A stretch of 64,000 nt of DNA from Vitis vinifera. Its lineage: Eukaryota > Streptophyta > Magnoliopsida > Vitales > Vitaceae. Shown one piece after another: positions 37,181 through 61,640 of the stretch (its first letter is position 1; every line of letters starts with the position of its first letter). A model generated the notes under the pieces. That model was not told the origin of the DNA and made no database searches. It was given only the letters and a program-made list of their open reading frames with translations. The stretch covers positions 28,311,001 to 28,375,000 of the forward strand of contig NC_081818.1 in the NCBI RefSeq assembly GCF_030704535.1, given 5' to 3'. A program made the position numbers and the translations under genes.

Positions 37181-37779
37181 ATGGAAGGAAGGAGGATGAA
37201 CCAAGTTCCTTTGTATGCATCAATTTTACTGTTTTTTTTTTCCTTTTTAATCTTTGGATCGAATCATTGCTTAGTTCTTGCTTAATTTCTCCATTTTATG
37301 GTGGGTCTTTGATTGCAGGTTTAGCTCTGCGCGAGAACTGGGAAATTTAATTGTGACCTCCAATCTAATCGACTCTGCTTTGACTAAAATTCTTGAGCTT
37401 CAAAGAGACCAAACAGCCTTGCCTTCCCCCGTTCAATACAGAGTTTTTTATCCATCTCCCAAGTGCACAATTGTAGCTTTTGTCTCTTCACCTGACTGCA
37501 CTCAAAACCCTCTTCCTGGACAAGGAGATTTAGTTCCCTCTCCTCTCTTTGACTTCCTCTGCACCGAAGAATACCCTTCCGTCTCCATTAACGGAGCCGC
37601 ATTAACCCTCTTTACCTCTCTCTACGATCATCTCTCTGGACTAATAGATGAGGTCAAAATCTGATACTTGTTTTAATTTACGTTAACTTTTCGTTAACAA
37701 TTGTGAGACACGAAACAGCTTGACCATGAGATCTCCCTCATGGAGTCAAAACCCGTGTTGGTATCTGTTTTTAGATCAA

Positions 37780-37814
<35 letters not shown>

Positions 37815-39396
37815 TGTGGATAAAAGGAAAGTTTACAAGTGAGAATAGTGGCATTTTTCTGACAGATTTCACACCGTTGCTTGTTTTGCAGTTGACTGTG
37901 ATTGAAGGTCGATTAATCATCACTGGGCACTCGATGGGAGGATCCGTTGCTTCTCTCTTCACCTTATGCCTGCTAGAAGTCATTAATATATCAAAACCCA
38001 AATGCCGCCCCATTTGCATCACCTTTGGTTCACCCCTCATAGGCGACTTTGGCCTCCAACACTCCAATTGGAATTCTTTCTTCTTGCATGTAGTGTCCAA
38101 CCAAGATCTAGTCCCCGGACTCTTCCTCCCATCCGGCAGATCTCCTCCCACATCCTCCCATTCACAAACTACTGGTTACAAGCCCTTTGGGACATATCTC
38201 TTGTGCTCTGAACTTGGTTGTGCTTGTTTTGACAACCCTGATTTAATTTTGGAATTGCTGAAAGTCATATCATCAGAGGTTGCCGGAGGATTGCGGGATG
38301 TTGATTACAGGAAGATTTTAATAAACCTCAAGGAGAGGGCAATCTTCAAGGGACTTCAGCAGGTGGGTGAAAGGTTTGCAGATCCCTTGTCAGCTGGGAT
38401 CGTCATGGACCTTGAGATAATTGGATTTGATCAAACAAAGGTAAACAGCTTTCTCCCAATTAATGATGTAGTATGGTTTACACTCAACTTCACCAAAACC
38501 TGCAACAACTGCCCTATTTAGATTTGCCTTCCTGTTCTTTGGGTTCTTCTATAACTTCTCATTTTTTAAATTCATGGCAGCTGTTGCGGCACAACATTGA
38601 TATCAACACTGTGATAAGGATACTGGGAGTGGAAGCCAGAATCCTAGCCCACAAAAATAAAGCTTCTGATGCCAAGAAACTGAATGACATAAAAATACAC
38701 ATGGCCCAGCTAGAATGGTATAAGAAGAAATCAAAAGATCTGAACAAGGGTTACTACGACTGCTTCAAAAACCAGGGGTCAAAAAGGGACATTAAAATTG
38801 AACAGTATAGGGGACACCTCACAATATACTGGAAAGACATGGTTGCACAAGTACAGAGGAAGCCCCAGAAGGAAGGAGCATCATTTCGAACCAGTTGGCT
38901 CTATCCAGGGACAACTTATAGAAGAATGGTTGAACCACTGGACATTGCTGCCTTCTACAGAGAGGGTAGAACAGACTACATAAACAATGGAAGATCTCCT
39001 CATTACAAGCTGTTGCAGCAATGGTATGAGGAAGATGTGAAGCCCCCATCCAGAGATAAGCTCGATTCCAAGAAACTAAAGGTGTCTGGTATCCTAACTG
39101 AGGATTCTTTGTTTTGGGCACATGTGGAGGAGGCTCTCTTGTCATGCGAATCGCTCAAGAGTGCAAACTCTACTCTTGAGCAGAGAAAATCATCATGGGA
39201 TAATCTGGTTAAGTTTGGGGAGTATGTAATGGAACAGATTGGAAACTATGCAGTGTCCCCTGAGATTTTCTTGGGGGAAAGCAGCTTCATGAAATGGTGG
39301 GGAGTGTATGAGGACTACATAGATGCTTCCAATAATTCCTATGGGTCACCATTGATCAGCTTTATGAAGAACCGTAGTTATAGACTGTATGGTTAG
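37181..39396 (+). CDS. SAG101: SAG101-like lipase-like immune regulator, copy A (intact)
   Basis: Exons 37181-37212, 37319-37652, 37892-38440 and 38581-39396 (TAG) give 576 aa. SAG101 belongs to the EDS1/PAD4/SAG101 family: an N-terminal lipase-3-like domain and a C-terminal EP helical domain. SAG101 pairs with EDS1 in nucleus and cytosol to relay TIR-NLR immune signals; it was first described as a senescence-associated acyl hydrolase. Seen here: GHSMGGSVASL with the nucleophile-elbow Ser136, CITFGSPLIGD, HVVSNQDLVPG with a possible catalytic Asp194, then EP-domain landmarks EWYKKKSKDLNKGYYDCF, YRRMVEPLDIAAFYREG and VSPEIFLGESSFMKWW. The 11-residue first exon ends TT|GTATG and restores the frame exactly. 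Intron 2 is shortened and holds a (TA)n run at 37782-37812. The catalytic His was not located. All splice sites are canonical. Confidence 0.92.
37782..37812. repeat. (TA)n microsatellite in intron 2 of copy A
   Basis: It sits where copies B, C, D and F have ordinary sequence. About 100 bp of intron just upstream are missing relative to them, and copy E has a larger deletion at its own TA run (54208-54232). Confidence 0.85.
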
Positions 39397-39462
39397 AGGG
39401 CAATCCAGTTTGTGTATTGTGTTTATTGTATTGTGAGCATTCAATAGATAAAACTAGAAAGA

Positions 39463-39690
39463 GCGTGACCTTTTTATGACAACTTTAGAAACCAGGGGTT
39501 AAAAGAGACATTACAAACTGAAGTTTTTGAGAGGAAACCTCAAGAGTATACTGGGAAGCCATGGTGGAACAAGTAGAGAGGAAGCCTCAGAAGGAAGGAG
39601 CAATGGTTGAACCACTTGACATTGTTGCCTACTACAGGGAGGGTGTAAGAAACAACATAACCGAGGGAAGATCTGAACGTTAAACGTTGT
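39463..39690 (+). pseudogene. SAG101 exon 4 relic (diverged) downstream of copy A
   Basis: Traces of the EP-domain exon survive: YDNFRNQG-like, then WEAMVEQVERKPQKEGA, then MVEPLDIVAYYREGVRNN, with stops and missing segments. It is much more diverged than the complete copies, so it predates the recent duplications. The same relic recurs after copy E (55888-56103). Confidence 0.75.
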
Positions 39691-40613
39691 CCAATTATTA
39701 TAAATGTCTTATACATTACGTGTGAAAATACCAAAAAAAATTATATTCAACATTTATGTTTGTATACAAGCAATATTTTGGATAGTTTGATATAAAAAAC
39801 AAATGAAGAAAATGAAGAAAAACATACAAATATATTTACAATGGACAAACTTATACAATTAGTATAAATGTCTTGTATATTTAGTACAAATGTCTCGTAC
39901 TTTGTAAAAATATAAAAATATAGTATTTGACTTTTATATATGTGTGAAAATGTAAAAAGAAAAAGAAAAATAGTTAGAGCATTTGGTACCGTGAGTGATG
40001 ACTTCACCTAAAGAAAGGTTAATGAATATTATGGTCTCGATGGAAGAGCGACTCCGGTAAAATATATGGATTAAATTGATGCTTTTCTTTTGACGATGAA
40101 GTAGTTGAGTTATGAATACGAGGTTTTGCTAACAGCATTGAAGGCAAGGATTCCCTAATATACTCCAATTCATATTCAATTTGTAGACCTTCAACTAACT
40201 ACTCTTGCTAACGAGCATATCCAAGTCAATACATAAGATTAATTAAGATTAAGTATTACGTATGATAATTGAAACCCTATTTAAATAAATAATGACACAT
40301 ATATAAAAAATATATATATTTTTAAAAAAATAAATAACAATTTAGAGAATTTCATAACTTAGCATCAAACCTATTGTAAGAAAGAGTATTATACAATGTA
40401 GGGTTTAGGATCCAAGTCAACCTAAGATCAAATTTAAGTTTTAAGATCAATTCACATTCAAAACTAAGGTTTTAAGTTTCAAAAATATATTTCTTAAACC
40501 AATTAAATGGAAAAAAGAAAATTACAAAGAAAATTTCTCCCTCATCAGTTTCTTTTATCTTGAAAACTAAAGGAAATATATATCAATATTTGAGATGGAA
40601 ATTCATAATCTTA
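39691..40613. other. intergenic DNA between copies A and B
   Basis: AT-rich, no gene. From about 40190 it matches the sequence before copies D (from 49113), F (from 56611) and the array end (from 60992). Confidence 0.65.
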
Positions 40614-40891
40614 GGTGGTGTTTGTTTTTTTGGCTTTTTGCTGAAAACTATTTAGTTTTAGAATTTAGGTTTTTTTTTTTTTTTACTTTTTCATGACTTA
40701 TAATAAACTTTTTACTAAATAGAAAAAACCAAAATATGTGGTTTTTTCTAAATAGAAAAAATAACACAATGGTTTTTTTTACTTTTTAATACTTAATAGA
40801 AATAAAATACTACAAAAACAAACATCTTAATATTTAATACTATTAAGTATTAAGGTTCTATTTAGAATTAAGTAAAAAAACAAACACCACC
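40614..40891. mobile_element. MITE, Tourist/PIF-Harbinger-like, with TTA target duplication
   Basis: It is 278 bp long with terminal inverted repeats GGTGGTGTTTGTTTTTT and AAAAAACAAACACCACC. It is flanked by TTA at 40611-40613 and 40892-40894. The paralogous sites at about 49511-49535 and 57011-57035 read ATAATC-TTA-GAAACAC with a single TTA and no insert, so they are true empty sites. The 3-bp TTA duplication and GG-TGTTTG termini fit the PIF/Harbinger superfamily. A relative lies at 10267-10545. Confidence 0.92.
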
Positions 40892-41428
40892 TTAGAAACA
40901 CAAAGAACAAAGAGAGTATGAAGAGACCATACCATGAGAGATTTTCCGAAAGGTTGGTAAACCATGGTAATCACCTTTGAGTCTTGCTGAGAAAAACAAA
41001 CCTTATTTATTTTTATTTTTTTATCATTTTTTCTCTTGTGTGGTGTACATTTAAGAAAAACAAATCTCAAAAAAAAAAAAAAACACAAACCAAATAATGC
41101 CAGAATTTGGGTTGAGAAACACCCAAAAGATAGTGGCCCAATACATGTGCCTAAGAAAATCTTCATGAGCCGATAAACATAGTCACAAAACTAGTAACAG
41201 CCTTGTAGCCATAGTTGGTGTAGTATGAGCAAGTGGGGTATGAAGTAGGTAGGTGAGTATTGCAATGAAATTTCCAGCACTGCTTCCTGAATTAAGAAAT
41301 CACATACCCAAGTCTTAGTCGTCGTCGTCGTCGTACCGTGTGAGAACCGGGAAGAATCTTTGCTCGTAGACTGGCTTTTGTAGTCTTTCTTTAACAATTA
41401 CAAGTTATCTGAATTCCCTTCATCCTCC

Positions 41429-41435
41429 TATATAA
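41429..41435 (+). promoter_or_regulatory. TATA box of SAG101 copy B
   Basis: TATATAA, 52 bp upstream of the ATG. The same box is 53 bp upstream of copies C (44838), D (50056) and F (57555). Copies A and E have CACACCA-type sequence at this place. Confidence 0.6.
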
Positions 41436-41480
41436 TATTGTTTTGGTCTTGTTCTTGTTGCATTGTGGCTAGGCATCTCC

Positions 41481-43773
41481 ATGGAAGGAAGGAGGATGAA
41501 TCAAGTTCCTTTGTATGAATCAATTTCTCTGCTCTTTTTTTTTTTCAATCCTTGAATCGAATCATTGCTTAGTTCTTGCTTTAATTTCTCCATTTTCTGT
41601 TGGGTCTTTGATTGCAGGTTTAGCTCTGCAAGAGAACTGGGAAATTTAATTGTGACCTCCAATCTAATCGACTCTGCTTTGACTAAAATTCTTGAGCTTC
41701 AAAGAGACCAAACAGCCTTGCTTTCCCCCGTTCAATACAGAGTTTTTTTATCCATCTCCCAACTGCACAATTGTAGCTTTTGTCTCTTCACCTGACTGCA
41801 CTCAAAACCCTCTTCCTGGACAAGGAGATTTAGTTCCCTCTCCTCTCTTTGACTTCCTCTGCACCGAAGAATACAAGTCCGTCTCCATTAACAGAGCTGC
41901 ATTAACCCTCTTTACCTCTCTCCACGATCATCTCTCTGGACTAAAAACTCAGGTCAAAATATGATAGTTGTTTTTATTTTCGTTTCCTTTTTGTTAACAA
42001 TTGTGAGACATGAAACAGCTTGACCATGAGATCTCTCTCATAGAGTCAAACTACCTGAAGAAGAAGAAGACGTTACACATATCCATCTGCGTTGCATCAT
42101 CGCATTACCCATTGATCGGTTGTGATTCAACTCTTAATAGGAAGACAGTAGAACTGGTGTTGGTATCTGTTTTTAGATCAGCTTATATGTATCTTGTTGC
42201 TAAAAAGGGAATGTTTAGAAGTGAGATTAATGGGATTATTCTGACATGGATTTCATATGGTTACCTGTTTTGCAGTTGACTGTGATTGAAGGTCAATTAA
42301 TCATCACTGGGCACTCCCTGGGAGGAGCCGTTGCTTCTCTCTTCACCTTATGCCTGCTAGATGAAAATTTATTAAAACCCAAATGCCGCCCCTTTTGTAT
42401 CACCTTTGGTTCACCCCTCGTCGGCGGCTTTGGCCTCCAACACTCCATATGGAATTCTTTCTTCCTGCATGTAGTGTCTAACCAAGACCCAGTCCCCGGT
42501 CTCTTCCTCCCATCTGGCAGAGGCAGATCTACGCCCACATCCTCCCATTCACAAACTACCGGTTACAAGCCCTTTGGGACATATCTCTTGTGCTCTGAAC
42601 TTGGTTGTGCTTGTTTTGACAACCCTGATTTAATTTTGGAATTGCTGAAAGTCATATCATCAGAGGTTGCCGGAGGATTGCAGGATGTTGATTATGGGGA
42701 GATTTTAAGAAACCTCAAGGAGAGGGCAATCTGCAAGGGACTTCCGCAGGTGGGTGAAAGGTTTGCAAATCCATTTTCAGCTGGGATCATCATGGAACTT
42801 GAGACAATTGGATTTAATCAAACAAAGGTAAACAGCTTTCTCCCATCTAATGATGTTATGGAACATGGTTTACACCTCATTAAATACTGCAACAACTGCC
42901 CTATTTAGATTTACCTTCTTGTTCTTTGGGATTTTCCATAACTAGACTCATTTTTTAATTTCATGGCAGCTGCTGCAGCATAACATTGATATCGAGACTG
43001 TGATAAGCGCAATGGAAGCGGAAGCAAGAAACCTAACCCAGAAAAATAAAGCTTCCGATGCCAAGAAACTGAATGAAATAAAAATAGACATGACCCGGCT
43101 AGAATTGTATAAGAAGAATTCGAACATGGGTTACTACGATTGCTTCAAAAACCAGGGGTCTAAAAGGGACATCCACGTTGAACAGTTTAGGGTAAACCTC
43201 ACAGGGTACTGGGAAGGCATGGTTGCACAAATACAGAGGAAGCCTCATAAGGAAGGAGCAACATTTCGAACCCGTTGGCTCTATGCAGGGACGGTTTATA
43301 GAAGAATGGTTGAACCACTGGACATTGCTGCCTTCTACAGAGAGGGTAGAAAAGACTACATGAATAAAAGATCTGCACATTACAAGCTGTTGCAGGAATG
43401 GTATGAGGAAGATGTGAAACCCCCCTCTAGAGATAAGCTTGATTCCAAGAAGCAAAAGGTGTCCAGTATCCTAACTGAGGATTCTTGCTTTTGGGCACAT
43501 GTGGAGGAGGCTATCTTGTCATGCGAATTGCTCAAGAGTGAAAACTGTAATCTTGAGGAGGGAAAATCATCATGGGATAATCTGGTTAAGTTCGAGGAGT
43601 ATGTAATGGAACAGATTGACAACTATGCAGTGTCCCCTGAGATTTTCTTGGAGAAAAGCAGCTTCATGAAATGGAGGGGACTGTATGAGGGCTACATAGA
43701 TACTCGCAGTAATTCCCATAGCTCGCCATTGATCAGCTTTATGAAGAATCGTAGTTATAGACAATATGGATAG
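41481..43773 (+). pseudogene. SAG101-like, copy B (frameshift in exon 2)
   Basis: Exons 41481-41512, 41618-41952, 42276-42827 and 42970-43773 follow copy A. Exon 2 is 335 bp instead of 334: the T-run after AATACAGAG has seven T's (about 41743-41749) against six in every other copy. Translation would shift and stop at 41793-41795 after about 70 residues. Everything downstream is intact (GHSLGGAVASL, CITFGSPLVGG, NQDPVPG, EWYEEDVKPPS, VSPEIFLEKSSFMKW), so the loss is recent or a homopolymer sequencing error; corrected, it would encode about 573 aa. It is the only copy with GGA rather than GGS after the elbow Ser. TATATAA precedes it. Confidence 0.85.
42010..42279 (+). other. open 89-codon frame inside intron 2 of copy B
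   Basis: It starts MKQLDHEISLIESNYLKKKK and runs to a TGA that straddles the intron 2/exon 3 junction. The same open frame, almost unchanged, is present in intron 2 of C (45418-45687), D (50636-50905) and F (58135-58404). It is deleted in A and E. SAG101 from other plants has no insertion here, so in normal transcripts it should be spliced out. Confidence 0.4.
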
Positions 43774-44159
43774 AGGGGTAATCCAGTTTGTGTGTTGTGT
43801 GTATTGTTTTGTGAGCATTCAATGGATAGAACTAGAAAGAGTGTGACCTTTTCCTTTTTTTTTTCAGTTGCTGCCCATATTCTCAGCACTATTTTCTTCC
43901 TTCTTTTCCTCAGTTTTTTTGTTAAGAAATGAATATTATGATGTTGCCGGGATGCACTTTCATTTTTGTTCCATTACATTGTGTTTTATTCATATCCTAA
44001 ACAAATAAATGTAAACAAGAAAATCAAATGAGACTTCAAAGAGTCTGTTCCTTTTAAAGCAAGGGAAAAAAAGGACATGTTTGTTTACTTCCACAGCTGG
44101 GTAGATTCAACTCCACCAAAATTGGCAACAACTTCCCATTGAAAAATTCCTTTTAAGCT
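43774..44159. other. intergenic DNA after copy B
   Basis: 3' flank shared with copy D (52416-52800). No gene. Confidence 0.6.
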
Positions 44160-44500
44160 TGAATGACATAAAACTAGATATGTTCCAGCTAGAATGGTAC
44201 AAGAAAGAAATCAAAAGATGAGCACAATGGGTTATTATGACAGCTTTAGAAACCTGGGGTGTAAAAGAGACATTAAAATGGAACCGAGGGGAAGACATTG
44301 TAGAACAAGTAAAGAGGAAGCCTCACCAGGAAGGGCAGCTTTGCAAACCCTCTGGCTCTGTACAGGAACGAATTATAGAAAGATGGTTGAACCACTTGAC
44401 ATTGCTGCCTACCACAGAGAGGGTGGAAGAAACTACATAACCAATGGAGGATGTAAACATTACACGCTATTAGAGCAATGATGCAATGAAGAGAAGGGGA
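44160..44500 (+). pseudogene. SAG101 exon 4 relic between copies B and C
   Basis: The frames read SLNDIKLDMFQLEWYKKEIKR, then MGYYDSFRNLGCKRDIKMEP, then YRKMVEPLDIAAYHREGGRNY, then a truncated end. Frame jumps occur between the pieces. It covers the 5' and middle part of the EP exon only. Its first part also survives after copy D (52800-52893), and the middle to 3' part lies at 61320-61640. These look like pieces of one ancestral pseudogene split by later rearrangements. Confidence 0.8.
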
Positions 44501-44837
44501 CTTTGTCTTCCAATAATTTAAGAAAATAAAACCAAATAATGCCAGAATTTGGGTTGAGAAACACCCAAAAGATAGTGGCCCAATATGAAGTAGTCACAAA
44601 ACTAGTAACAGCCTTGTGGCCATAGTTGGTGTAGTATGAGCAAGTGGGGTATGAAGTAGGTAGGTGAGTATTGCAATGAAATTTCCAGCACTGCTTCCTG
44701 AATTAAGAAATCACATACTCAAGTCTTAATCGTTGTCATCATACCGTGTGAGAACCGAGGAAGAATCTTTGCTCTTAGACTGGATTTTGTAGTCTTTCTT
44801 TAACAATTACAAGTTATCTGAATTCCCTTCATCCTCC

Positions 44838-44844
44838 TATATAA
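44838..44844 (+). promoter_or_regulatory. TATA box of SAG101 copy C
   Basis: TATATAA, 53 bp upstream of the copy C ATG. Confidence 0.55.
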
Positions 44845-44890
44845 TATTGTTTTTGGTCTTGTTCTTGTTGCATTGTGGCTAGGCATCTCC

Positions 44891-46313
44891 ATGGGAGGAA
44901 GGAGGATGAATCAAGTTCCTTTGTATGAATCAATTTCTCTGCTCTTTTTTTTTTCAATCCTTGAATCGAATCATTGCTTAGTTCTTGCTTTAATTTCTCC
45001 ATTTTCTGTTGGGTCTTTGATTGCAGGTTTAGCTCTGCAAGAAAACTGGGAAATTTAATTGTGACCTCCAATCTAATCGACTCTGCTTTGACTAAAATTC
45101 TTGAGCTTCAAAGAGACCAAACAGCCTTGCCTTCCCCCGTTCAATACAGAGTTTTTTATCCATCTCCCAACTGCACAATTGTAGCTTTTGTCTCTTCACC
45201 TGACTGCACTCAAAACCCTCTTCCTGGACAAGGAGATTTAGTTCCCTCTCCTCTCTTTGACTTCCTCTGCACCGAAGAATACAAGTCCGTCTCCATTAAC
45301 AGAGCTGCATTAACCCTCTTTACCTCTCTCCACGATCATCTCTCTGGACTAAAAACTCAGGTCAAAATATGATAGTTGTTTTTATTTTCGTTTCCTTTTT
45401 GTTAACAATTGGGAGACATGAAACAGCTTGACCATGAGATCTCTCTCATAGAGTCAAACTACCTGAAGAAGAAGAAGACGTTACACATATCCATCTGCGC
45501 TGCATCATCGCATTACCCATTGATCGGTTGTGATTCAACTCTTAATAGGAAGACAGTAGAACTGGTGTTGGTATCTGTTTTTAGATCAGCTTATATGTAT
45601 CTTGTTGCTAAAAAGGGAATGTTTAGAAGTGAGATTAATGGGATTATTCTGACATGGATTTCATATGGTTACCTGTTTTGCAGTTGACTGTGATTGAAGG
45701 TCGATTAATCATTACTGGGTACTCGATGGGAGGATCCGTTGCTTCTCTCTTCACCTTATGCCTGTTAGAAGTCATCAATTTATCAAAACCCAAATGCCGC
45801 CCCATTTGTATCACCTTTGGTTCACCCCTCATAGGCGACTTTGGCCTCCAACACTCCAATTGGAATTCTTTCTTCTTGCATGTAGTGTCCAACCAAGATC
45901 TAGTCCCCGGACTCTTCCTCCCATCCGACAGATCTCCTCCCACATCCTCCCATTCACAAACTACTGGTTACAAGCCCTTTGGGACATATCTCTTGTGCTC
46001 TGAACTTGGTTGTGCTTGTTTTGACAACTCTGATTTAATTTTGGAATTGCTGAAAGTCATATCATCAGAGGTTGCCAGAGGATTGCGGGATGTTGATTAC
46101 AGGAAGATTTTAAGAAACCTCAAGGAGAGGGCAATCTGCAAGGGACTTCCGCAGGTGGGTGAAAGGTTTGCAAATCCATTTTCAGCTGGGATCATCATGG
46201 AACTTGAGACGATTGGATTTAATGAAACAAAGGTAAACAGCTTTCTCCCATCTACTGATGTTATGGAACATGGTTTACACATCATTAAATACTGCAACAA
46301 CTGCCCTATTTAG
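44891..46313 (+). CDS. SAG101-like, copy C, truncated: lipase-like half only
   Basis: Exons 44891-44922, 45027-45360 and 45684-46232 are intact and join in frame (305 aa). The exon 4 that encodes the EP domain is missing. If intron 3 is not spliced, the frame runs 26 codons further to TAG 46311-46313, giving 331 aa. It has GYSMGGSVASL, with Tyr for the His of the elbow, and CITFGSPLIGD and NQDLVPG as in A. The first codons read MGGRRMNQ. Nothing downstream to 48266 can supply an EP exon: intron 3 is interrupted by an 884-bp insertion and then joins unrelated AT-rich DNA. Copy F has the same truncation, so loss came before their duplication. Without the EP domain it could at most act through the lipase-like face that pairs with EDS1. 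Confidence 0.7.
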
Positions 46314-46318
46314 ATTTA

Positions 46319-47202
46319 GGGCAATGATGAAAATATCAGTAATCACGGATATATCAGTATTTCGATTTTACGGATATATCGGATATATCGGAGATATATC
46401 GGTAGATATTTTGAAAAAAAATATCGGCAAGCTTAAAATTGTTAAAAACTCATGAAAATATAAGAAAATCTCATAATAATATAATTAAAAGTATAATAGA
46501 CATTTTAAAGTTATTTTATTGAAAATTTTGATATATGTATAACATGATTTATCATATTTGATAATAATATCGTATGCGTCGATAAAAATATGAATTTTAT
46601 AAGTGTACATTTATTATTAAATTACACCTAATATTATGATATCTGATTATAATATGTCTAATTTTAAAATATATATTAGTATTAAAATATGATCCATTTA
46701 ATTCAATTGTATTAAACAATATAAAATAAATAATGATATATATATATATATATATAATTTTTTAATATTTAATTAATTATTAATGATATTAAAAACATTA
46801 TGAAGAAAATTATATAATTTTTTAATTTTTGGTAATTAATTAAAAGACTTTGCATTTAATTATAAATTAATTATAATTAATTTACTCTTTAAAATATTCT
46901 TATATTTTCTTTATATAATGAATTTAAGTATATATATAGTTGTTGCATATTATATATTAAAGGACAACTTAGCCCAAGTGGTAAGCGAGTGAACCCCAAT
47001 GTGAGGCATTGTAGCACGTGCACTGTAGCATCACTGTAGCGACTCTGACTTTCGTTGACCCGCATTGACTACACGATATATCGGAGAAAAATCACTGATT
47101 TATCGCCAAATCACCAATAAATCGCCGATTTCTCGCGATAAATACCAAAATATAGTGTCGAAACCCTTCGATACACGATTTTTCGGCGCATTTTCTTACT
47201 TG
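46319..47202. mobile_element. 884-bp insertion in copy C with GATTTA target duplication
   Basis: Copy F reads straight through this place (TATTTA-GATTTA-CCTTCTTG at about 59027-59045). In copy C, GATTTA is present on both sides (46313-46318 and 47203-47208). The insert starts GGGCAATGATG and ends TTTTCTTACTTG. Both ends are rich in GATATATCGG-like words and the middle is AT-rich. Near 46975 it has TAGCCCAAGTGGTAAG, resembling a Pol III A box, but I see no convincing B box or poly-A tail. It has no coding capacity and the class is unresolved. Confidence 0.8.
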
Positions 47203-47208
47203 GATTTA

Positions 47209-48266
47209 CCTTTTTGTTCTTTGGGATCTTCCATGACTCATTTTTTAATGCCATTTTATTTTCCTTTTTGTTTCTAAATTTTTAAAAAATCGTTTTCACT
47301 TCTTTTTTTTAAGAAAATTTTGGCAAATTTTGAAAATATAATATTAGTGTTTTCACTTCTTTCTTTTTTTTTTTTTTCTTTTTTTTTTTAAACTCAATTT
47401 TCTAAAAAATGAAAATAGAAAAACATTGTCTAAACATGTTTGTAAACTTAATTTTATTTTTTTATAAATGAAAAAAAAAATCTAAATGAGTAAGGCTTTA
47501 TTAATTTTAATTTTTTTCTTTTCCTTATATTTTCTTATTTTATTCCAAATTTTCTTGCAACCAAACATAATCTAAATGTTTACAACTTTTATTGTAAGGA
47601 ATGAATGACACTACTTTGTGAACTTTTATGATAATATTTTGAATCATAAATTGTGTTTTTTTTAGTAATATCAATTTTATTACCAATGACTTAATTGTTA
47701 ATAACAAAATATAATATTTATAAATATTTTTATTCTCAACAGGCTACAATTTTTACTCTTGTGATAAAAAAAATTTTGTCATAAATTACACATTATGATG
47801 AGTTTTTCTATTTTCCTTATCAGCCAATTCAACAAATATCATATATATTGTAATGGCTAACAAATTTTCACATAAATTTTTTATAAGATAAAGTAGAATG
47901 GAATTATTCAATTTCAAAAAAAAAAAAAATGGTACCTAATGAAAAAGATAAAATATATAGATCATCTCGAAGAAATCAGGAAAGATAAATGATGAGACCA
48001 TATATAGGACCCTTGATGGAGACTATTTTAATTGAAGTGGTGTGCTCCTTCCGACTCAGAACATGTTCAGCATTGCACACAAACTAACATCGTCGATCTT
48101 GAGTATGAAAAAGGTGATTAGATTCCAAGGTTGTCGTTTGTCCCAACTCCTCATATTAGAGGTGATGCTCAAGCTAACGTGCCTCGCAGTTGAGCCCCGG
48201 CCAATCGGTCTAATATGCTTTTCCAATGGTGAGTTTCACTGCCACCATGTATTACATTAATTCCGA
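47209..48266. other. AT-rich segment shared with 59040-60134
   Basis: After about 30 bp of SAG101 intron 3, the sequence leaves the SAG101 consensus at TTTTTTAATG and runs about 1 kb through AT-rich DNA to the PIG-N fragment. The same segment follows copy F. One difference is near 48133, where F has about 40 extra bases (about 59967-60004). No gene is recognised. Confidence 0.6.
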
Positions 48267-48372
48267 TAGCGCACAAGTTGTGTTTGTGCTATTGCTTTTT
48301 GCCCTCACAAACATATACACAAGAGACATTCAGACCAGATCTGTTCTACCATCCTCTAGGAAAGCATTGTAG
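48267..48372 (+). pseudogene. PIG-N last-exon fragment, first duplicate
   Basis: 106 bp matching the end of the PIG-N gene (35294-35399), including the codons for [19 protein letters not shown] and the TAG stop, followed by about 740 bp of PIG-N 3' flank to about 49112. The first 59 bp of the real exon are absent. The fragment has no upstream exon and cannot make PIG-N. It may still supply a poly-A signal. Confidence 0.93.
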
Positions 48373-50055
48373 GTCATTTGAAATTGGGATTTCAGCACCA
48401 GAGTCAAATTGCCTTCCTTCCTGAAAGATGAGCATTTTTTATACTCTTACATCGGCTTTTATGGAAATGAAATCAGCTTCTCATTCTGTTACATTTTTCA
48501 ATTTTGCTGCCTATAACTGCTCACTGCCTGTTTGTGAGACATTATCCAGATTTTCCCTGATCAATTATAGAGAGGTCATTGGACTCATCCATGATTGGAA
48601 TTTCCTGTTATCATTATTTGCAAATCATCAACCATTTGTCATGATATCTTAAGTTAAGCTGAGCACGAATTTCAGCTAAGATCCTCAGAACTAGAAATAT
48701 GCACTGCAGGTATTACTTGATATGTGAATATCCAATACAATATTTTTTTACTAAGAGGAATACGAATTTGAAACACTTTCCAATAATTTATCAAGTCATA
48801 TTTTCGTGCTGTCGTGATACATGTGTCTACTGTATGCATGGCTTTTCTTTTCTACACATGCCTTTATCTTTGCACATGACTCTTTTGATACACGCCAGCA
48901 TCAAGGCAATTGCCTAAATCTAAATCACATCCTTTGTGTCACGTCTTCCTTGTTACCACGGTCCTCTTGTACACCATGGTCCCTTAATGTAACTTGTGCC
49001 ACAAGCCCTTTGTGCATGAATTCAAATTGTTCAATCATTTCGCCATTTACACCTTTTAAGGTCCAATAAGCGTATACAAGAGACTACACTCATTCTAGAT
49101 GATAAAGTACATTCAACTAACTACTCTTGCTAATGAGCATATCCAAGTCAATACATAAGATTAATTATTACATATGGTAATTGAAACCCTGTTTAAATAA
49201 ATAGTGACACAAATATAAAAAATATATATATTTAAAAATAAATAAATAACAATTTAGAGAATTTCATAACTTAGTATCAAACCTATTGTAGGAAAGAGTA
49301 TTATACAATGTAGGGTTTAGGATCAAAGTTAACCTAAGATCAATTTTAAGTTTTAAGACCAATTCAAATTCAAAACTAAGGTTTTAAGTTTCAAAAATAT
49401 ATCTCTTAAACCAATTAAATAGAAAAAAGAAAATTACAAAGAAAATTTCTTCCTCATCGGTTTCTTTTATCTTGAAAACTAAAGGAAATATATATCAATA
49501 TTTGAGATGGAAATTCATAATCTTAGAAACACAAAGAACAAAGAGAGTATGAAGAGACCATACCATGAGAGATTTTCCAAAAGGTTGGTAAACCATGGTA
49601 ATCACCTTTGAGTTTTGCTGAGAAAAACAAACCTTAATTTTTATTTTTATTTTTTTATCATTTTTTCTCTTGTGGTGTACATTTAAGAAAAACAAATCTT
49701 AAAAAAAAAAAAAAAAAAACCAAATAATGCCAGAATTTGGGTTGAGAAACACCCAAAAGATAGTGGCCCAATACATGTGCCTAAGAAAATCTTCATGAGC
49801 CGATAAACATAGTCACAAAACTAGTAACAGCCTTGTAGCCATAGTTGGTGTAGTATGAGCAAGTGGGGTATGAAGTAGGTAGGTGAGTATTGCAATGAAA
49901 TTTCCAGCACTGCTTCCTGAATTAAGAAATCACATACCCAAGTCTTAGTCGTCGTCGTCGTACCGTGTGAGAACCGGGAAGAATCTTTGCTCGTAGAGTG
50001 GCTTTTGTAGTCTTTCTTTAACAATTACAAGTTATCTGAATTCCCTTCATCCTCC
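48373..50055. other. duplicated PIG-N 3' flank joined to SAG101 intergenic DNA
   Basis: PIG-N flank runs to about 49112. There it is joined at the short shared word TTC to the sequence found at 40190 between copies A and B. The remainder equals the region upstream of copy B without the MITE. The same joint occurs at about 60991. Confidence 0.75.
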
Positions 50056-50062
50056 TATATAA
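50056..50062 (+). promoter_or_regulatory. TATA box of SAG101 copy D
   Basis: TATATAA, 53 bp upstream of the ATG. Confidence 0.55.
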
Positions 50063-50108
50063 TATTGTTTTTGGTCTTGTTCTTGTTGCATTGTGGCTAG
50101 GCATCTCC

Positions 50109-52415
50109 ATGGAAGGAAGGAGGATGAATCAAGTTCCTTTGTATGAATCAATTTCTCTGCTCTTTTTCTTTTCAATCCGTGAATCGAATCATTGCTTAGT
50201 TCTTGCTTTAATTTCTCCATTTTCTGTTGGGTCTTTGACTGCAGGTTTAGCTCTGCAAGAGAACTGGGAAATTTAATGGTGACCTCCAATCTAATCGACT
50301 CTGCTTTGACTAAAATTCTTGAGCTTCAAAGAGACCAAACAGCCTTGCTTTCCTCCGTTCAATACAGAGTTTTTTATCCATCTCCCAAGTGCACAATTGT
50401 AGCTTTTGTCTCTTCACCTGACTGCACTCAAAACCCTCTTCCTGGACAAGGAGATTTAGTTCCGTCTCCTCTCTTTGACTTCCTCTGCACCGAAGAATAC
50501 AAGTCCGTCTCCATTAACAGAGCTGCATTAACCCTCTTTACCTCTTTCCACGATCATCTCTCTGGACTAAAAACTCAGGTCAAAATATGATAGTTGTTTT
50601 TATTTTCGTTTCCTTTTTGTTAACAATTGTGAGACATGAAACAGCTTGACCATGAGATCTCTCTCATAGAGTCAAACTACCTGAAGAAGAAGAAGACGTT
50701 ACACATATCCATCTGCGTTGCATCATCGCATTACCCATTGATCGGTTGTGATTCAACTCTTAATAGGAAGACAGTAGAACTGGTGTTGGTATCTGTTTTT
50801 AGATCAGCTTATATGTATCTTGTTTCTAAAAAAGGTAAGTTTAGAAGTGAGATTAATGGGATTATTCTGACATGGATTCCATATGGTTACCTGTTTTGCA
50901 GTTGACTCAGATTGAAGGTCAATTAATCATCACTGGGCACTCCCTGGGAGGATCCGTTGCTTCTCTCTTCACCTTATGCCTGCTAGATGGAAATTTATTA
51001 AAACCCAACTGCCGCCCCTTTTGTATCACCTTTGGTTCACCCCTCATCGGCGGCTTTGGCCTCCAACACTCCATATGGAATTCTTTCTTCCTGCATGTAG
51101 TGTCTAACCAAGACCCAGTCCCCGGTCTCTTCCTCCCATCTGGCAGAGGCAGATCTACGCCCACATCCTCCCATTCACAAACTACCGGTTACAAGCCCTT
51201 TGGGACATATCTCTTGTGCTCTGAACTTGGTTGTGCTTGTTTGGAAAAGCCTGATTTAATTTTGGGATTGCTGAAAGTCAGATCATCCGAGGTTGCCGGA
51301 GGATTGCAGGATGTTGATTATGGGGAGATTTTAAGAAACCTCAAGGAGAGGGCAATCTGCAAGGGACTTCAGCAGGTGGGTGAAAGGTTTGCAGATCCTT
51401 TTACAGCTGGGATCATCATGGACCTTGAGATAATTGGATTTGATCAAACAAAGGTAAACAGCTAGCTTTCTCCCATCTAATGATGTTATGAAACATGGTT
51501 TACACTTCACCAAATACTGCAACAACTGCCCTATTTAGATTTGCCGTCTTGTTCTTTGGGATCTTCCATAACTAGACTCATTTTTTAATTTCATGGCAGC
51601 TGCTGCAGCATAACATTGATATCGAGACTGTGATAAGCACAATGGAAGAGGAAGCCAGAAACCCAACCAAAAAAAATAAAGCTTTCGATGCCAAGATTCT
51701 GAATCACAAAAAAAAAGACATGGCCGGGCTAGAATGGTATAAGAAGAAATCAAAAGATCTGAACAAGGGTTACTACGACTGCTTCAAAAACCAGGGGTCA
51801 AAAAGGGACATTAAAATTGAACAGTATGGGGGACACCTCACATTATACTGGAAAGACATGGTTGCACAAGTACAGAGGAAGCCCCAGAAGGAAGGAGCAA
51901 CATTTCGAACCCGTTGGCTCTATGCAGGGACGGTTTATAGAAGAATGGTTGAACCACTGGACATTGCTGCCTTCTACGTAGAGGGTGGAACAGACTACAT
52001 GAAGAATGAAAGATCTCTTCATTACAAGCTGTTGCAGCAATGGTATGAGGAAGATGTGAAACCCCCCTCTAAGGATAAGCTTGATTCCAAGAAGCAAAAG
52101 GTGTCTGGTATCCTAACTGAGGATTCTTGCTTTTGGGCACATGTGGAGGAGGCTATCTTGTCATGCGAATTGCTTAAGAGTGAAAACTGTACTCTTGAGC
52201 AGGAAAAATCATCATGGGATAATCTGGTTAAGTTCGAGGAGTATGTAATGGAACAGATTAACAACTATGCAGTGTCCCCTGAGATTTTCTTGGGGGAAAG
52301 CAGCTTCATGAAATGGTGGGGACTGTATGAGGGCTACATATATGCTCGCAGTAATTCCCATAGGTCACCATTGATCAGCTTTATGAAGAACGGTAGTTAT
52401 ACAGAGTATCGTTAG
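50109..52415 (+). CDS. SAG101: SAG101-like lipase-like immune regulator, copy D (intact)
   Basis: Exons 50109-50140, 50245-50578, 50902-51453 and 51600-52415 give 577 aa with canonical splice sites. It has GHSLGGSVASL (elbow Ser), CITFGSPLIGG, HVVSNQDPVPG, and a full EP domain with EWYKKKSKDLNKGYYDCF, YRRMVEPLDIAAFYVEG and VSPEIFLGESSFMKWW. It is closest to copy B, and with copy A is one of only two full-length undamaged members. It carries its own substitutions in the EP exon (NPTKKNKAFDAKILNHKKKD) where the other copies have a conserved Ala/Lys-rich stretch. It has a TATATAA box and the longer intron 2 with its open frame. The function is that of SAG101: EDS1 partner in TIR-NLR immunity and senescence; which copies are used is not visible from sequence. 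Confidence 0.92.
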
Positions 52416-53675
52416 AGGGGTAATCCAGTTTGTGTGTTGTGTGTATTGTTTTGTGAGCATTCAATGGATAGAACTAGAAAGAGTGTGACCTTTTTCCTTT
52501 TTTTCTTCTAGTTGCTGCCCATATTCTCAGCACTATTTTCTTCCTTCTTTTCCTCAGTTTTTTCTTAAGAAATGAATATTATGATGTTGCTGGGATGCAC
52601 TTTCATTTTTGTTCCATTACATTGTGTTTTATTCATATCCTAAACAAATAAATGTAAACAAGAAAATCAAATAAGACTTCAAAGAGTCTGTTCCTTTTAA
52701 AGCAAGGGAAAAAAAGGACATGTTTGTTTACTTCCACAGCTGGGTAGATTCAACTCCACCAAAATTGGCAACAACTTCCCATTGAAAAATTCCTTCTAAG
52801 CTTGAATGACATAAAACTAGATATGTTCCAGCTAGAATGGTACAAAAAAGAAATCAAAAGATGAGCACAATGGGTTATTATGACAGCTTTAGAAACCATC
52901 TTACAACACATCCATCAGAATTTAGACTATTCATAGAAACATTCTTAACATGTAAATCTACTATTGCCATGCACGTCAACATAGAATTTCTAAAATGATT
53001 GAATAAAATAAATAAAACAAAAGAAACCCTTCCAAGAGAATTTCATAATCTAATGTCAAATCTATTACGAAGATGAACATGTAAAATTTAAGGTTTATAA
53101 TCAAAGTCGACTTGAATCTGAGTTTTAAAACCAATTTGCAGTTTTTAAGTTTGGAGACTAGATCTCTTAAACCAATTAAATGTAAAAAACTAAAAAGAAA
53201 ACTTCTTCAAATTTTGAAATGAGAATGAGAATGCAATTCCTAACTAGTTTCTTCATCAAAAATCCCGAAAAAAAAAAAAAAAGAAGAGAGAGAGAGACCA
53301 TAGACGCCAGTGTTTGGGTTTAGAACCACCCAAGAGAGAGTAGTCCAATATATGGGCTTAAGAAAATCCTCATGGGCCTAAGCTAAGACTAGGAACAATC
53401 TTGTATCCGTGGTTGGTTTAGTATGAGCATGTGTACTGCGAAGGAAGTAGCTGAGAATTGCAATGGAATTTCCAGTACTGCTTCCTGAACGAACAAATCG
53501 CATACCCAAGATTTGGTCGTCAACGCCATGCTGGGTGAGAACCGGGGAAGCATCTTCGCTCGTTGACGAGCTTTTGTAGTCCTTCTTTAACAATTATAAG
53601 GCATCTGAATTCCCTTCATCCTCCCACACCATTGTTTTTGGTCTTGTTCTTGTTGCTTTGTGACTACGCATCTCC
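52416..53675. other. intergenic DNA between copies D and E with duplication breakpoint
   Basis: To about 52890 it follows the copy B 3' flank and the first part of the exon 4 relic (52800-52893). At 52894 it switches to the sequence found at 36403 upstream of copy A and stays with it into copy E. The switch is in AAACC, shared by both parents. Confidence 0.8.
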
Positions 53676-55816
53676 ATGGAAGGAAGGAGGATGAACCAAG
53701 TTCCTTTGTATGCATCAATTTTACTGTTTTTTTTTTCCTTTTTAATCTTTGGATCGAATCATTGCTTAGTTCTTGCTTAATTTCTCCATTTTATGTTGGG
53801 TCTTTGATTGCAGGTTTAGCTCTGCGCGAGAACTGGGAAATTTAATTGTGACCTCCAATCTAATCGACTCTGCTTTGACTAAAATTCTTGAGCTTCAAAG
53901 AGACCAAACAGCCTTGCCTTCCCCCGTTCAATACAGAGTTTTTTATCCATCTCCCAAGTGCACAATTGTAGCTTTTGTCTCTTCACCTGACTGCACTCAA
54001 AACCCTCTTCCTGGACAAGGAGATTTAGTTCCCTCTCCTCTCTTTGACTTCCTCTGCACCGAAGAATACCCTTCCGTCTCCATTAACGGAGCCGCATTAA
54101 CCCTCTTTACCTCTCTCTACGATCATCTCTCTGGACTAATAGATGAGGTCAAAATCTGATACTTGTTTTAATTTACGTTAACTTTTCGTTAACAATTGTG
54201 AGACACGTATATATATATATATATATATATATCTTGTGGATAAAAGGAAAGTTTACAAGTGAGAATAGTGGCATTTTTCTGACAGATTTCACACCGTTGC
54301 TTGTTTTGCACTTGACTGTGATTGAAGGTCGATTAATCATCACTGGGCACTCGATGGGAGGATCCGTTGCTTCTCTCTTCACCTTATGCCTGCTAGAAGT
54401 CATTAATATATCAAAACCCAAATGCCGCCCCATTTGCATCACATTTGGTTCACCCCTCATAGGCGACTTTGGCTTCCAACACTCCAATTGGAATTCTTTC
54501 TTCTTGCATGTAGTGTCCAACCAAGATCTAGTCCCCGGACTCTTCCTCCCATCCGGCAGATCTCCTCCCACATCCTCCCATTCACAAACTACTGGTTACA
54601 AGCCCTTTGGGACATATCTCTTGTGCTCTGAACTTGGTTGTGCTTGTTTTGACAACCCTGATTTAATTTTGGAATTGCTGAAAGTCATATCATCAGAGGT
54701 TGCCGGAGGATTGCGGGATGTTGATTACAGGAAGATTTTAATAAACCTCAAGGAGAGGGCAATCTTCAAGGGACTTCAGCAGGTGGGTGAAAGGTTTGCA
54801 GATCCCTTGTCAGCTGGGATCATCATGGACCTTGAGATAATTGGATTTGATCAAACAAAGGTAAACAGCTTTCTCCCAATTAATGATGTAGCATGGTTTA
54901 CACTCAACTTCACCAAAACCTGCAACAACTGCCCTATTTAGATTTGCCTTCCGGTTCTTTGGGTTCTTCTATAACTTCTCATTTTTTAAATCCATGGCAG
55001 CTGTTGCGGCACAACATTGATATCAACACTGTGATAAGGATACTGGGAGCGGAAGCCAGAATCCTAGCCCACAAAAATAAAGCTTCTGATGCCAAGAAAC
55101 TGAATGACATAAAAATACACATGGCCCAGCTAGAATGGTATAAGAAGAAATCAAAAGATCTGAACAAGGGTTACTACGACTGCTTCAAAAACCAGGGGTT
55201 AAAAAGGGACATTAAAATTGAACAGTATAGGGGACACCTCACAATATACTGGAAAGACATGGTTGCACAAGTACAGAGGAAGCCCCAGAAGGAAGGAGCA
55301 TCATTTCGAACCAGTTGGCTCTATCCAGGGACAACTTATAGAAGAATGGTTGAACCACTGGACATTGCTGCCTTCTACAGAGAGGGTAGAACAGACTACA
55401 TAAACAATGGAAGATCTCCTCATTACAAGCTGTTGCAGCAATGGTATGAGGAAGATGTGAAGCCCCCATCCAGAGATAAGCTCGATTCCAAGAAACTAAA
55501 GGTGTCTGGTATCCTAACTGAGGATTCTTTGTTTTGGGCACATGTGGAGGAGGCTCTCTTGTCATGCGAATCGCTCAAGAGTGCAAACTCTACTCTTGAG
55601 CAGAGAAAATCATCATGGGATAATCTGGTTAAGTTTGGGGAGTATGTAATGGAACAGATTGGAAACTATGCAGTGTCCCCTGAGATTTTCTTGGGGGAAA
55701 GCAGCTTCATGAAATGGTGGGGAGTGTATGAGGACTACATAGATGCTTCCAATAATTTCTATGGGTCACCATTGATCAACTTTATGAAGGACCGTAGTTA
55801 TAGACTGTATGGTTAG
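53676..55816 (+). pseudogene. SAG101-like, copy E, exon 3 splice acceptor lost
   Basis: A near-identical copy of A: exons 53676-53707, 53814-54147, 54312-54860 and 55001-55816 would give 576 aa. But base 54311 is C where A has G, so exon 3 is preceded by TTTTGCAC instead of TTTTGCAG. The next AG downstream would remove coding sequence and the frame depends on which cryptic site is used. All other splice sites and the coding frame are intact, so the mutation is recent. Intron 2 is also shorter than in A: the deletion ends in the (TA)n run 54208-54232. The EP domain is as in A apart from a few changes (YGSPLINFMKDRSYRLYG at the end). It may be a pseudogene or express a variant. Confidence 0.8.
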
Positions 55817-55887
55817 AGGGCAATCCAGTTTGTGTATTGTGTTTATTGTATTGTGAGCATTCAATAGATAAAACTAGAAAGAGCGTG

Positions 55888-56103
55888 ACCTTTTTATGAC
55901 AACTTTAGAAACCAGGGGTTAAAAGAGACATTACAAATTGAATTTTTTGAGAGGAAACCTCAAGAGTATACTGGGAAGCCATGGTGGAACAAGTAGAGAG
56001 GAAGCTTCGGAAGGAAGGATCAATGGTTGAACCACTTGACATTGTTGCCTACTTCAGGGAGGGTGTAAGAAACAACATAACCGAGGGAAGATCTGAACAT
56101 TAA
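55888..56103 (+). pseudogene. SAG101 exon 4 relic after copy E
   Basis: Duplicate of the relic at 39463-39690, with a few substitutions. It was carried along in the A-to-E segment duplication. Confidence 0.75.
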
Positions 56104-57554
56104 ACATTGTACAATTATTGTAAATGTCTTATACATTACGTGTGAAAATACCAAAAAAAATTATATTCAACATTTATGTTTGTATACAAGCAATATTTTG
56201 GATAGTTTGATATAAAAAACAAATGAAGAAAACGAAGAAAAACATACAAATATATTTACAATGGACAAACTTATACAATTAGTGTAAATGTCTTGTATAT
56301 TTAGTACAAAAGTCTCGTACTTTGTAAAAATATAAAAATATAGTATTTGACTTTTATATATGTGTGAAAATGTAAAAGGAAAAAGAAAAATAGTTAGAGC
56401 ATTTGGTACCGTGAGTGATGACTTCACCTAAAGAAAGGTTAATGAATATTATGGTCTCGATGGAAGAGCGACTCCGGTAAAATATATGGATTAAATTGAT
56501 GCTTTTCTTTTGACGATGAAGTAGTTGAGTTATGAATACGAGGTTTTGCTAACAACATTGAAGGCAAGGATTCCCTAATATACTCCAATTCATATTCAAT
56601 TTGTAGACCTTCAACTAACTACTCTTGCTAATGAGCATATCCAAGTGAATACATAAGATTAATTATTACATATGATAATTGAAACCCTGTTTAAATAAAT
56701 AGTGACACAAATATAAAAAATATATATATTTAAAAATAAATAAATAATAATTTAGAGAATTTCATAACTTAGCATCAAACCTATTGTAGGAAAGAGTATT
56801 ATACAATGTAGGGTTTAGGATCAAAGTTAACCTAAGATCAAATTTAAGTCTTAAGACCAATTCACATTCAAAACTAAGGTTTTAAATTTCAAAAATATAT
56901 CTCTTAAACCAATTAAATGGAAAAAAGAAAATTACAAAGAAAATTTCTTCCTCATCGGTTTCTTTTATCTTGAAAACTAAAGGAAATATATATCAATATT
57001 TGAGATGGAAATTCATAATCTTAGAAACACAAAGAACAAAGAGAGTATGAAGAGACCATACCATGAGAGATTTTCCAAAAGGTTGGTAAACCATGGTAAT
57101 CACCTTTGAGTTTTGCTGAGAAAAACAAACCTTAATTTTTATTTTTATTTTTTTATCATTTTTTCTCTTGTGGTGTACATTTAAGAAAAACAAATCTTAA
57201 AAAAAAAAAAAAAAAAACCAAATAATGCCAGAATTTGGGTTGAGAAACACCCAAAAGATAGTGGCCCAATACATGTGCCTAAGAAAATCTTCATGAGCCG
57301 ATAAACATAGTCACAAAACTAGGAACAGCCTTGTAGCCATAGTTGGTGTAGTATGAGCAAGTGGGGTATGAAGTAGGTAGGTGAGTATTGCAATGAAATT
57401 TCCAGCACTGCTTCCTGAATTAAGAAATCACATACTCAAGTCTTAATCGTTGTCATCATACCGTGTGAGAACCGAGGAAGAATCTTTGCTCTTAGACTGG
57501 ATTTTGTAGTCTTTCTTTAACAATTACAAGTTATCTGAATTCCCTTCATCCTCC
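56104..57554. other. intergenic DNA between copies E and F
   Basis: It follows the A-B intergenic sequence (without the MITE; empty site at about 57011-57035) to about 57310. It then follows the copy C type, for example CTCAAGTCTTAATCGTTGTC near 57434 as in C. It is thus a recombinant between an A-B type spacer and a C-type promoter. Confidence 0.75.
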
Positions 57555-57561
57555 TATATAA
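57555..57561 (+). promoter_or_regulatory. TATA box of SAG101 copy F
   Basis: TATATAA, 53 bp upstream of the copy F ATG. Confidence 0.55.
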
Positions 57562-57607
57562 TATTGTTTTTGGTCTTGTTCTTGTTGCATTGTGGCTAGG
57601 CATCTCC

Positions 57608-59033
57608 ATGGGAGGAAGGAGGATGAATCAAGTTCCTTTGTATGAATCAATTTCTCTGCTCTTTTTTTTTTCAATCCTTGAATCGAATCATTGCTTAGTT
57701 CTTGCTTTAATTTCTCCATTTTCTGTTGGGTCTTTGATTGCAGGTTTAGCTCTGCAAGAAAACTGGGAAATTTAATTGTGACCTCCAATCTAATCGACTC
57801 TGCTTTGACTAAAATTCTTGAGCTTCAAAGAGACCAAACAGCCTTGCCTTCCCCCGTTCAATACAGAGTTTTTTATCCATCTCCCAAGTGCACAATTGTA
57901 GCTTTTGTCTCTTCACCTGACTGCACTCAAAACCCTCTTCCTGGACAAGGAGATTTAGTTCCCTCTCCTCTCTTTGACTTCCTCTGCACCGAAGAATACA
58001 AGTCCGTCTCCATTAACAGAGCTGCATTAACCCTCTTTACCTCTCTCCACGATCATCTCTCTGGACTAAAAACTCAGGTCAAAATATGATAGTTGTTTTT
58101 ATTTTCGTTTCCTTTTTGTTAACAATTGTGAGACATGAAACAGCTTGACCATGAGATCTCTCTCATAGAGTCAAACTACCTGAAGAAGAAGAAGACGTTA
58201 CACATATCCATCTGCGCTGCATCATCGCATTACCCATTGATCGGTTGTGATTCAACTCTTAATAGGAAGACAGTAGAACTGGTGTTGGTATCTGTTTTTA
58301 GATCAGCTTATATGTATCTTGTTGCTAAAAAGGGAAAGTTTAGAAGTGAGATTAATGGGATTATTCTGACATGGATTTCATATGGTTACCTGTTTTGCAG
58401 TTGACTGTGATTGAAGGTCGATTAATCATCACTGGGTACTCGATGGGAGGATCCGTTGCTTCTCTCTTCACCTTATGCCTGTTAGAAGTCATCAATTTAT
58501 CAAAACCCAAATGCCGCCCCATTTGTATCACCTTTGGTTCACCCCTCATAGGCGACTTTGGCCTCCAACACTCCAATTGGAATTCTTTCTTCTTGCATGT
58601 AGTGTCCAACCAAGATCTAGTCCCCGGACTCTTCCTCCCATCCGACAGATCTCCTCCCACATCCTCCCATTCACAAACTACTGGTTACAAGCCCTTTGGG
58701 ACATATCTCTTGTGCTCTGAACTTGGTTGTGCTTGTTTTGACAACTCTGATTTAATTTTGGAATTGCTGAAAGTCATATCATCAGAGGTTGCCAGAGGAT
58801 TGCGGGATGTTGATTACAGGAAGATTTTAAGAAACCTCAAGGAGAGGGCAATCTGCAAGGGACTTCCGCAGGTGGGTGAAAGGTTTGCAAATCCATTTGC
58901 AGCTGGGATCATCATGGAACTTGAGACAAATATTGGATTTAATGAAACAAAGGTAAACAGCTTTCTCCCATCTAATGATGTTATGGAACATGGTTTACAC
59001 CTCATTAAATACTGCAACAACTGCCCTATTTAG
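57608..59033 (+). CDS. SAG101-like, copy F, truncated: lipase-like half only
   Basis: Near-duplicate of copy C: exons 57608-57639, 57744-58077 and 58401-58952 are open and in frame (306 aa). There is no EP exon. Reading into intron 3 adds 26 residues to the stop at 59031-59033 (332 aa). It has GYSMGGSVASL, as in C. It differs from C in ETNIGF (one extra codon) and PFAAGI. Intron 3 lacks the 884-bp insert seen in C and runs straight into the shared AT-rich segment. The open frame has survived in both truncated copies with few changes. That may reflect recent duplication or some selection; the number of differences is too small to decide by eye. Confidence 0.7.
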
Positions 59034-61315: not shown

Positions 61316-61640
61316 TTCAAATTGAACCACTTGACAATGCTGCCTACCACATTGAGGGTGGAAGAAACTACATAACCAATGGAGGATCTAAACATTACAT
61401 GCTATTGGAGCAATGATGCAATGAAGAGGAGAAGGGGACTTTGTCTTCTCATGCAAATTGCTCTCAGAGCTCAGAACCTACTCCTGAAGGGAAAGAATCA
61501 TCATGGAGTGATCTGGTTAAGTTTGAGGATTTATTTATATAATTGAACTGATTGGAAGCTATGCAGTGTCGACCCCCACCCGAGCAGCTTCATGAAACGG
61601 TGGAAAGAGTTGGAAGAAGTCATAGATACTTGCTATAGGA
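61316..61640 (+). pseudogene. SAG101 exon 4 relic at the array end
   Basis: Degenerate pieces of the EP exon: VEPLDNAAYHIEGGRNY, then KHYMLLEQ, then ESSWSDLVKFEDLF, then SFMKRWKELEEVIDTC, with stops and frame jumps. It supplies the 3' part missing from the relic at 44160, and the two overlap in the middle. Confidence 0.75.

Follow-up and report, generated by a model that had tools for sequence, protein, structure and literature searches.

Organization of the SAG101 array

We analysed a 64,000-nucleotide stretch of the Vitis vinifera genome (C14:28311001-28375000; hereafter the window), which carries a tandem array of copies of SAG101, an immune-signalling partner of EDS1. Self-comparison of its 34-64 kb part, together with exon matches, delimits six gene bodies (A to F), all on the + strand, between positions 37181 and 59033 (Table 1). 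This is exactly the range given by a first-pass annotation of the letters, which had also proposed six copies; the first position is A's ATG, and the last is the stop closing F's exon-3 frame. Each of exons 1, 2, and 3 of A has six matching places, while exon 4 has four full-length ones plus relics. Five such relics follow A, B, D, E, and F, within the array or directly after it. The segment pairs proposed in the annotation were recovered at 98% (A-E), 95.6% (B-D), and 97.5% (C-F) identity, and kilobase-scale copies with 95-98% identity are not due to chance.

Of SAG101, PAD4, and EDS1, copy A is most similar to SAG101. Its EP exon scores 185.6 bits against Arabidopsis SAG101 (AtSAG101), versus 89.8 against PAD4 and 67.2 against EDS1, its lipase part scores 80 bits against SAG101 and 66 against PAD4, and the best PDB match for every part of A searched is Arabidopsis SAG101. 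Three of the six proteins were scanned with Pfam: EDS1_EP (PF18117) and Lipase_3 exceed the cut-off in A and D, with nearly equal EP scores (241.6 and 240.7 bits, respectively), and Lipase_3 alone does so in C. A genome search recovered the lipase-like domain at all six places of the array, and the EP exon was also matched in B and E. Like A and D, Arabidopsis SAG101 (PDB 4NFU, 7XJP, 8YN1) is full-length, with a lipase-like and an EP domain. In C and F, exon 4 is absent, and the protein of C aligns with AtSAG101 chain residues 13-263. C and F are SAG101-derived truncated genes with single-domain predicted products.

Splice sites and frames of every copy were taken from alignments to A's four-exon model. 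The states that the annotation had assigned to the copies all agree with these alignments. A and D are intact, with four open exons and GT/AG at all three introns. In B, exon 2 is 335 nt long instead of 334, having one T too many, and the first stop is codon 70; its exon 4 is open when taken by itself. In E, the coding exons are open and the damage consists of an AC in place of the AG ending intron 2. As the length of exon 3 is a multiple of three, its skipping would yield an in-frame product of 393 aa. Cryptic acceptors at -48 and -60 would also keep the frame, but purine-rich stretches precede both, and the other eight AGs examined as acceptors all shift it. B and E are probably pseudogenes. 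Finally, exons 1-3 are open in C and F, whose first two introns have normal splice sites, and the two proteins are identical at 303 of 305 aa.

Table 1. Features of the array and its surroundings (positions in the window; copies named in order along the + strand)
Feature	Positions	Strand	Remarks
SAG101-A	37181..39396	+	intact, 576 aa; exons 37181-37212, 37319-37652, 37892-38440, 38581-39396
EP-exon relic	39475..39674	+	downstream of A, has stops
MITE-like (miniature inverted-repeat transposable element) insertion	40612..40891		precedes B, with no counterpart before D or F; relatives at 10260-10546 and in the C5 array
SAG101-B	41481..43773	+	1-nt insertion in exon-2 T run (41743-41749), frame broken; splice sites normal
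EP-exon relic	44160..44510	+	downstream of B
SAG101-C	44891..46313	+	only exons 1-3 retained; 305 aa, followed by 26 read-through codons in intron 3 up to the TAG at 46313
Transposable element	46319..47202		about 884 bp, in C's residual intron 3; absent from F
Spacer x	47197..49114		follows C; the sequence behind F, from 59027, is 96.7% identical; a portion recurs upstream of A at 35291-36160
SAG101-D	50109..52415	+	intact, 577 aa; B-type, A-like tracts at exon 3 end and in exon 4
Truncated EP relic	52803..52898	+	downstream of D, joined to E's A-type flank
D-E junction	52889..52903		4-bp microhomology AACC at 52894-52897
SAG101-E	53676..55816	+	A-type; intron-2 acceptor AG to AC at 54310-54311; deletion of about 75 bp in intron 2
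EP-exon relic	55895..56102	+	downstream of E; counterpart of relic at 39475
Spacer t	56607..57024		between E and F; counterparts after A, before D, and before C5 genes
SAG101-F	57608..59033	+	only exons 1-3 retained; 306 aa, followed by 26 read-through codons; gene body of C-type, D-closest 5' flank, no transposable element
EP-exon relic	61322..61714	+	follows F; shares 91-97% identity with the relics of the four C5 genes

A second array and other genes of the pathway

Genome searches covered the 495.6-Mb assembly (21 contigs), and their counts are lower bounds for large families. They revealed a second SAG101 array on contig C5 (542501-582500, i.e., 542.5-582.5 kb), on the minus strand, with four genes which all have open frames, normal splice sites on the A model, and EP relics behind them. 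C5:503001-511000 gave no match to A. The C5 copies have GTG at the position of A's first ATG, and an ATG five codons further is kept in all ten copies. Outside the relics, the EP exon identified eight SAG101 places, one PAD4, and six EDS1-type places; adding C and F, the genome carries at least ten SAG101 copies, whereas SAG101 is single-copy in Arabidopsis. The C5 copies were rejected as whole-genome-triplication partners of the array, as their synonymous divergence (dS) to A is too low for the age of that event, at about 0.14-0.17 in the lipase part and EP.

PAD4 lies on C7 and EDS1 on C17 (PDB match for one of the six places), in agreement with the V. vinifera chromosomes given in PMC8556916 (cited, like the papers below, from excerpts of its text); this excerpt locates EDS1 and PAD4 and does not place a SAG101 gene. 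The six EDS1-type places are found at C17:8.64-8.95 Mb, one of them with a stop, and EDS1 may thus be expanded too. An ADR1-like gene is present on C18. A helper gene on C10 scores 223 bits against At5g66900 (NRG1A) and 221 against the rice helper of PDB 8ZF0, making an NRG1-like identity probable but not firm.

A motif at 37925-37942 and its counterparts read GHSxGG or GYSxGG where AtSAG101 has GAALGG. The GYSxGG variant is found in C, F, and one C5 copy, and the other SAG101 copies have GHSxGG.

Copy types and gene conversion

The copies of the array fall into two types: an A-type (A and E) and a B-type, comprising B, D, and the backbone of C and F. E resembles A, as the annotation had stated, not only over the long segment but also exon by exon (100%, 99.5%, and 99.4% identity in exons 2, 3, and 4, respectively). 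C and F are 99.5-99.7% identical in exons 2 and 3. A 6-nt insertion in exon 3 is common to B and D and absent from the C5 copies, while a 9-nt deletion in exon 4 is shared, at the same place, by B and the four C5 copies and is not found in A, D, or E.

In the flank, exons 1-2, and intron 2, C and F resemble B and D. Most of their exon 3 is A-like, and the sequence then becomes B-like again. The A-like tract spans about 400 bp (37911-38312 in A coordinates) and contains a few B-like sites. When sites that disagree between C and F, or that fit neither type, are omitted, 123 diagnostic sites form nine runs, and none of 100,000 shuffles gave as low a number. The resemblance of D to B, also proposed in the annotation, holds for most of the gene, but D carries A's state at most sites between 38358 and 38429 and again at 38747-38833 (A coordinates). 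Its 146 diagnostic sites, limited to those where two C5 copies agree with B, form 15 runs, again with 0 of 100,000 shuffles as low. Unrooted segment trees (ten tips for three segments, eight for two) conflict: the intron-2 tree groups B, C, D, and F with a support of 100, and the tree of the first part of exon 3 places C and F with A and E, apart from B, D, and the C5 copies, also with a support of 100. Clustered diagnostic sites and conflicting trees indicate that C, F, and D are gene-conversion mosaics.

Synonymous divergence by exon is 0-0.008 for A-E and 0-0.016 for C-F, versus 0.07-0.12 for A-D and 0.11-0.19 for A-C5. Among the 14 polarised differences between A and E, eight map to E, one to A, and five are ambiguous. 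Seven of the eight coding differences are nonsynonymous, as are three of the four coding ones on E. Four of the eight C-F differences map to C and none to F, the remaining four being ambiguous.

Loss of the EP exon and origin of E and F

Intron 3 breaks into spacer x at the same point in C and F, and EP was therefore lost once, in both together. The transposable element found in C is bounded by GATTTA, a candidate 6-bp target duplication, and is a dispersed repeat, with 39 other long copies among the 40 scored of 2632 first-look candidates. The 5' flank of C is shortened, starting about 10 bp behind the EP relic downstream of B, and F retains the flank lost from C. The annotation had described F as a copy of C. 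This is true of the likeness of the gene bodies, but a simple copy of present-day C is ruled out by the transposable element missing from F and by F's extra 5' flank.

Compared with D, this flank of F shows a single differing site in about 400 bp and is then C-like. Two of its states, common to D and not B, look derived, as one C5 copy carries B's letters. In the surviving C flank, however, no site separates C from D, save changes private to C, and the F flank thus fits exchange with D and common descent alike. Of 25 variable sites in spacer t behind E, 15 agree with D and six with A, but most of the 15 are A-private changes; when polarised with C5, three derived sites are common to E and D and one to E and A, a weak lean to D. 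For these reasons, neither spacer t nor the F flank is proof of exchange with D. The MITE-like insertion upstream of B is a weak dating mark, given a related, elsewhere-placed copy in the C5 array.

The D-E junction sits within D's EP relic, and its AACC is common to A's flank. As D's relic is cut at the junction while the relics of the C5 genes run on, the junction looks derived. An E-F unit, made of an A-type and a C-type gene, was thus attached behind D; the exact order of exchanges is a matter of inference. The annotation had suggested A-B-C as the older order, with D and E-F as products of later unequal exchange: this reading is partly supported, in that E is like A, D like B, and the body of F like C, but spacer t is weak, the F flank is ambiguous, and the order of exchanges cannot be fixed. 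A relic was probably part of the ancestral unit, given the identity of the one behind F to the four C5 relics. This identity reaches 97%, although the gene bodies are about 10% different, indicating unequal segment histories.

A probable birth-and-death array of an EDS1 partner

According to PMC8185089, a short EDS1 helix fits an N-terminal groove in its partner, either SAG101 or PAD4. On activation of EDS1:SAG101 by ADPr-ATP, the EP domain of SAG101 is turned, and this domain forms one NRG1 interface on its own (PMC12856790). For EDS1:PAD4, the same excerpt puts the ligand pocket between the EP domains, and we carry this over to SAG101.

We consider it likely, with good confidence, that SAG101, the EDS1 partner recruiting the NRG1 helper, forms a birth-and-death tandem array at this locus, in which A and D are the usable copies. 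The sequence shows that A-type and B-type copies have been mixed by gene conversion, that a single rearrangement in intron 3, common to C and F, removed the EP exon, and that E-F is placed behind D across the microhomology junction. B has lost its frame, E a splice site, and a transposable element has entered C. Under the proposed model, A, D, and the four C5 copies would make working SAG101, whose lipase-like domain would pair with EDS1 and whose EP domain would recruit NRG1 once a TIR-derived nucleotide is bound. The array was also proposed to supply alternative EDS1 partners. For A and D this is plausible; in C and F the EP domain is absent. If stable proteins are made from C and F, they could pair with EDS1 but not signal, and their role as EDS1-binding decoys is possible.

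Several observations weigh against this scenario. The only lesion found in B affects a homopolymer, and this indel could reflect sequencing or allelic variation rather than a fixed change. Ratios of nonsynonymous to synonymous divergence (dN/dS; NG86, calculated without a significance test) reach 1.22 for the EP domain of D versus A (0.66-0.89 versus the C5 copies), 0.94 (A-C) and 1.11 (A-F) for the lipase part, and 1.09 and 1.26 between copies C5a and C5b. Because some of these ratios approach or exceed 1, it is not evident that D is under purifying selection. Moreover, a single assembly underlies the order of events, and in it A-E and C-F are, over long segments and exons alike, similar enough to be alleles.

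A narrower form of the birth-and-death model, rather than its opposite, is that B, C, E, and F are all dead and that only A and D matter, to which we give somewhat better than an even chance. The frameshift in B, the splice mutation in E, the EP loss in C and F, and the mainly nonsynonymous A-E coding differences all point this way. Nevertheless, the frames of C and F remain open, and exon 3 of E can be skipped in frame.

Alternatively, C and F may be expressed as lipase-only SAG101 proteins which occupy EDS1 without signalling, a dominant-negative brake similar in principle to NRG1C. The truncated helper receptor NRG1C, likewise a shortened paralogue within the EDS1-SAG101-NRG1 module, is said to sequester EDS1-SAG101 (PMC12856790, PMC12315475), but belongs to a different gene family. 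By sequence, C and F retain the partner-binding lipase-like domain without the signalling EP domain, and have a SAG101-type upstream region. EDS1 pairing via the partner's N-terminal groove and an NRG1 interface located entirely in EP would suit such a role. However, the natural 3' end of both genes is gone, a transposable element lies directly behind the stop in C, and the two proteins are so alike that their open frame tells little about selection. We thus regard such a brake as unlikely.

An assembly artefact, with E-F-x being the other haplotype (an A'-F-x allele) set in tandem behind D, is also unlikely. Alleles in grape differ about as much as A-E and C-F do, the order E-t-F-x parallels A-t-(B..C)-x, and exchange with D is not demonstrated by spacer t or the F flank. 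On the other hand, a 4-bp microhomology within a truncated relic is not expected from sequence overlap in an assembler, E has its own mutations, and F differs from C by the transposable element and the 5' flank. The D-E junction weakens the assembly risk raised in the annotation, and error is reduced as an explanation, although both pairs still look allele-like. Finally, it is very unlikely that SAG101 has been split into modules, with lipase-only C and F proteins keeping EDS1 silent and exon-3 skipping in E giving EP with a broken lipase domain, so as to tune TIR-triggered cell death by copy number; if this were true, such tuning would vary between grape cultivars.

Comparison with known systems

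Clusters of nucleotide-binding leucine-rich repeat (NLR) genes are birth-and-death tandem arrays with gene conversion. The SAG101 array resembles them in its mosaics, pseudogenes, relic exons, and near-identical recent duplicates, but NLR clusters encode pathogen sensors while SAG101 is a downstream signalling partner. Like grape, Nicotiana benthamiana has more than one SAG101 gene per genome, namely SAG101a and SAG101b (mutant line, PMC9806590). These are two named genes, and the excerpt of PMC9806590 does not mention tandem arrays with truncated members; the words "Vitis" and "grape" are absent from its main text. Among the literature matches listed, no title or abstract opening describes grape SAG101 arrays, which does not exclude a description elsewhere. 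The grape locus is otherwise an ordinary, well-preserved tandem birth-and-death case.

SAG101 is positioned between TIR receptors and the NRG1 cell-death helper. If ten copies occur on two chromosomes, with truncated and mosaic members, expression studies must separate the copies, whose number may vary from one cultivar to another. With the C and F proteins, it could be tested in a natural setting whether a lipase-like domain by itself can block EDS1 signalling.

Neighbouring features

Upstream of the array, the window contains a LINE-type (long interspersed nuclear element) retrotransposon at 19299-25198, with endonuclease, reverse transcriptase, and zf-RVT domains, and the start of a PIG-N domain at 26465-26845, corresponding to a PIG-N gene or gene piece. 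At the other end, positions 63560-64000 read like the first exon of what we take, by eye, to be a class III peroxidase gene.

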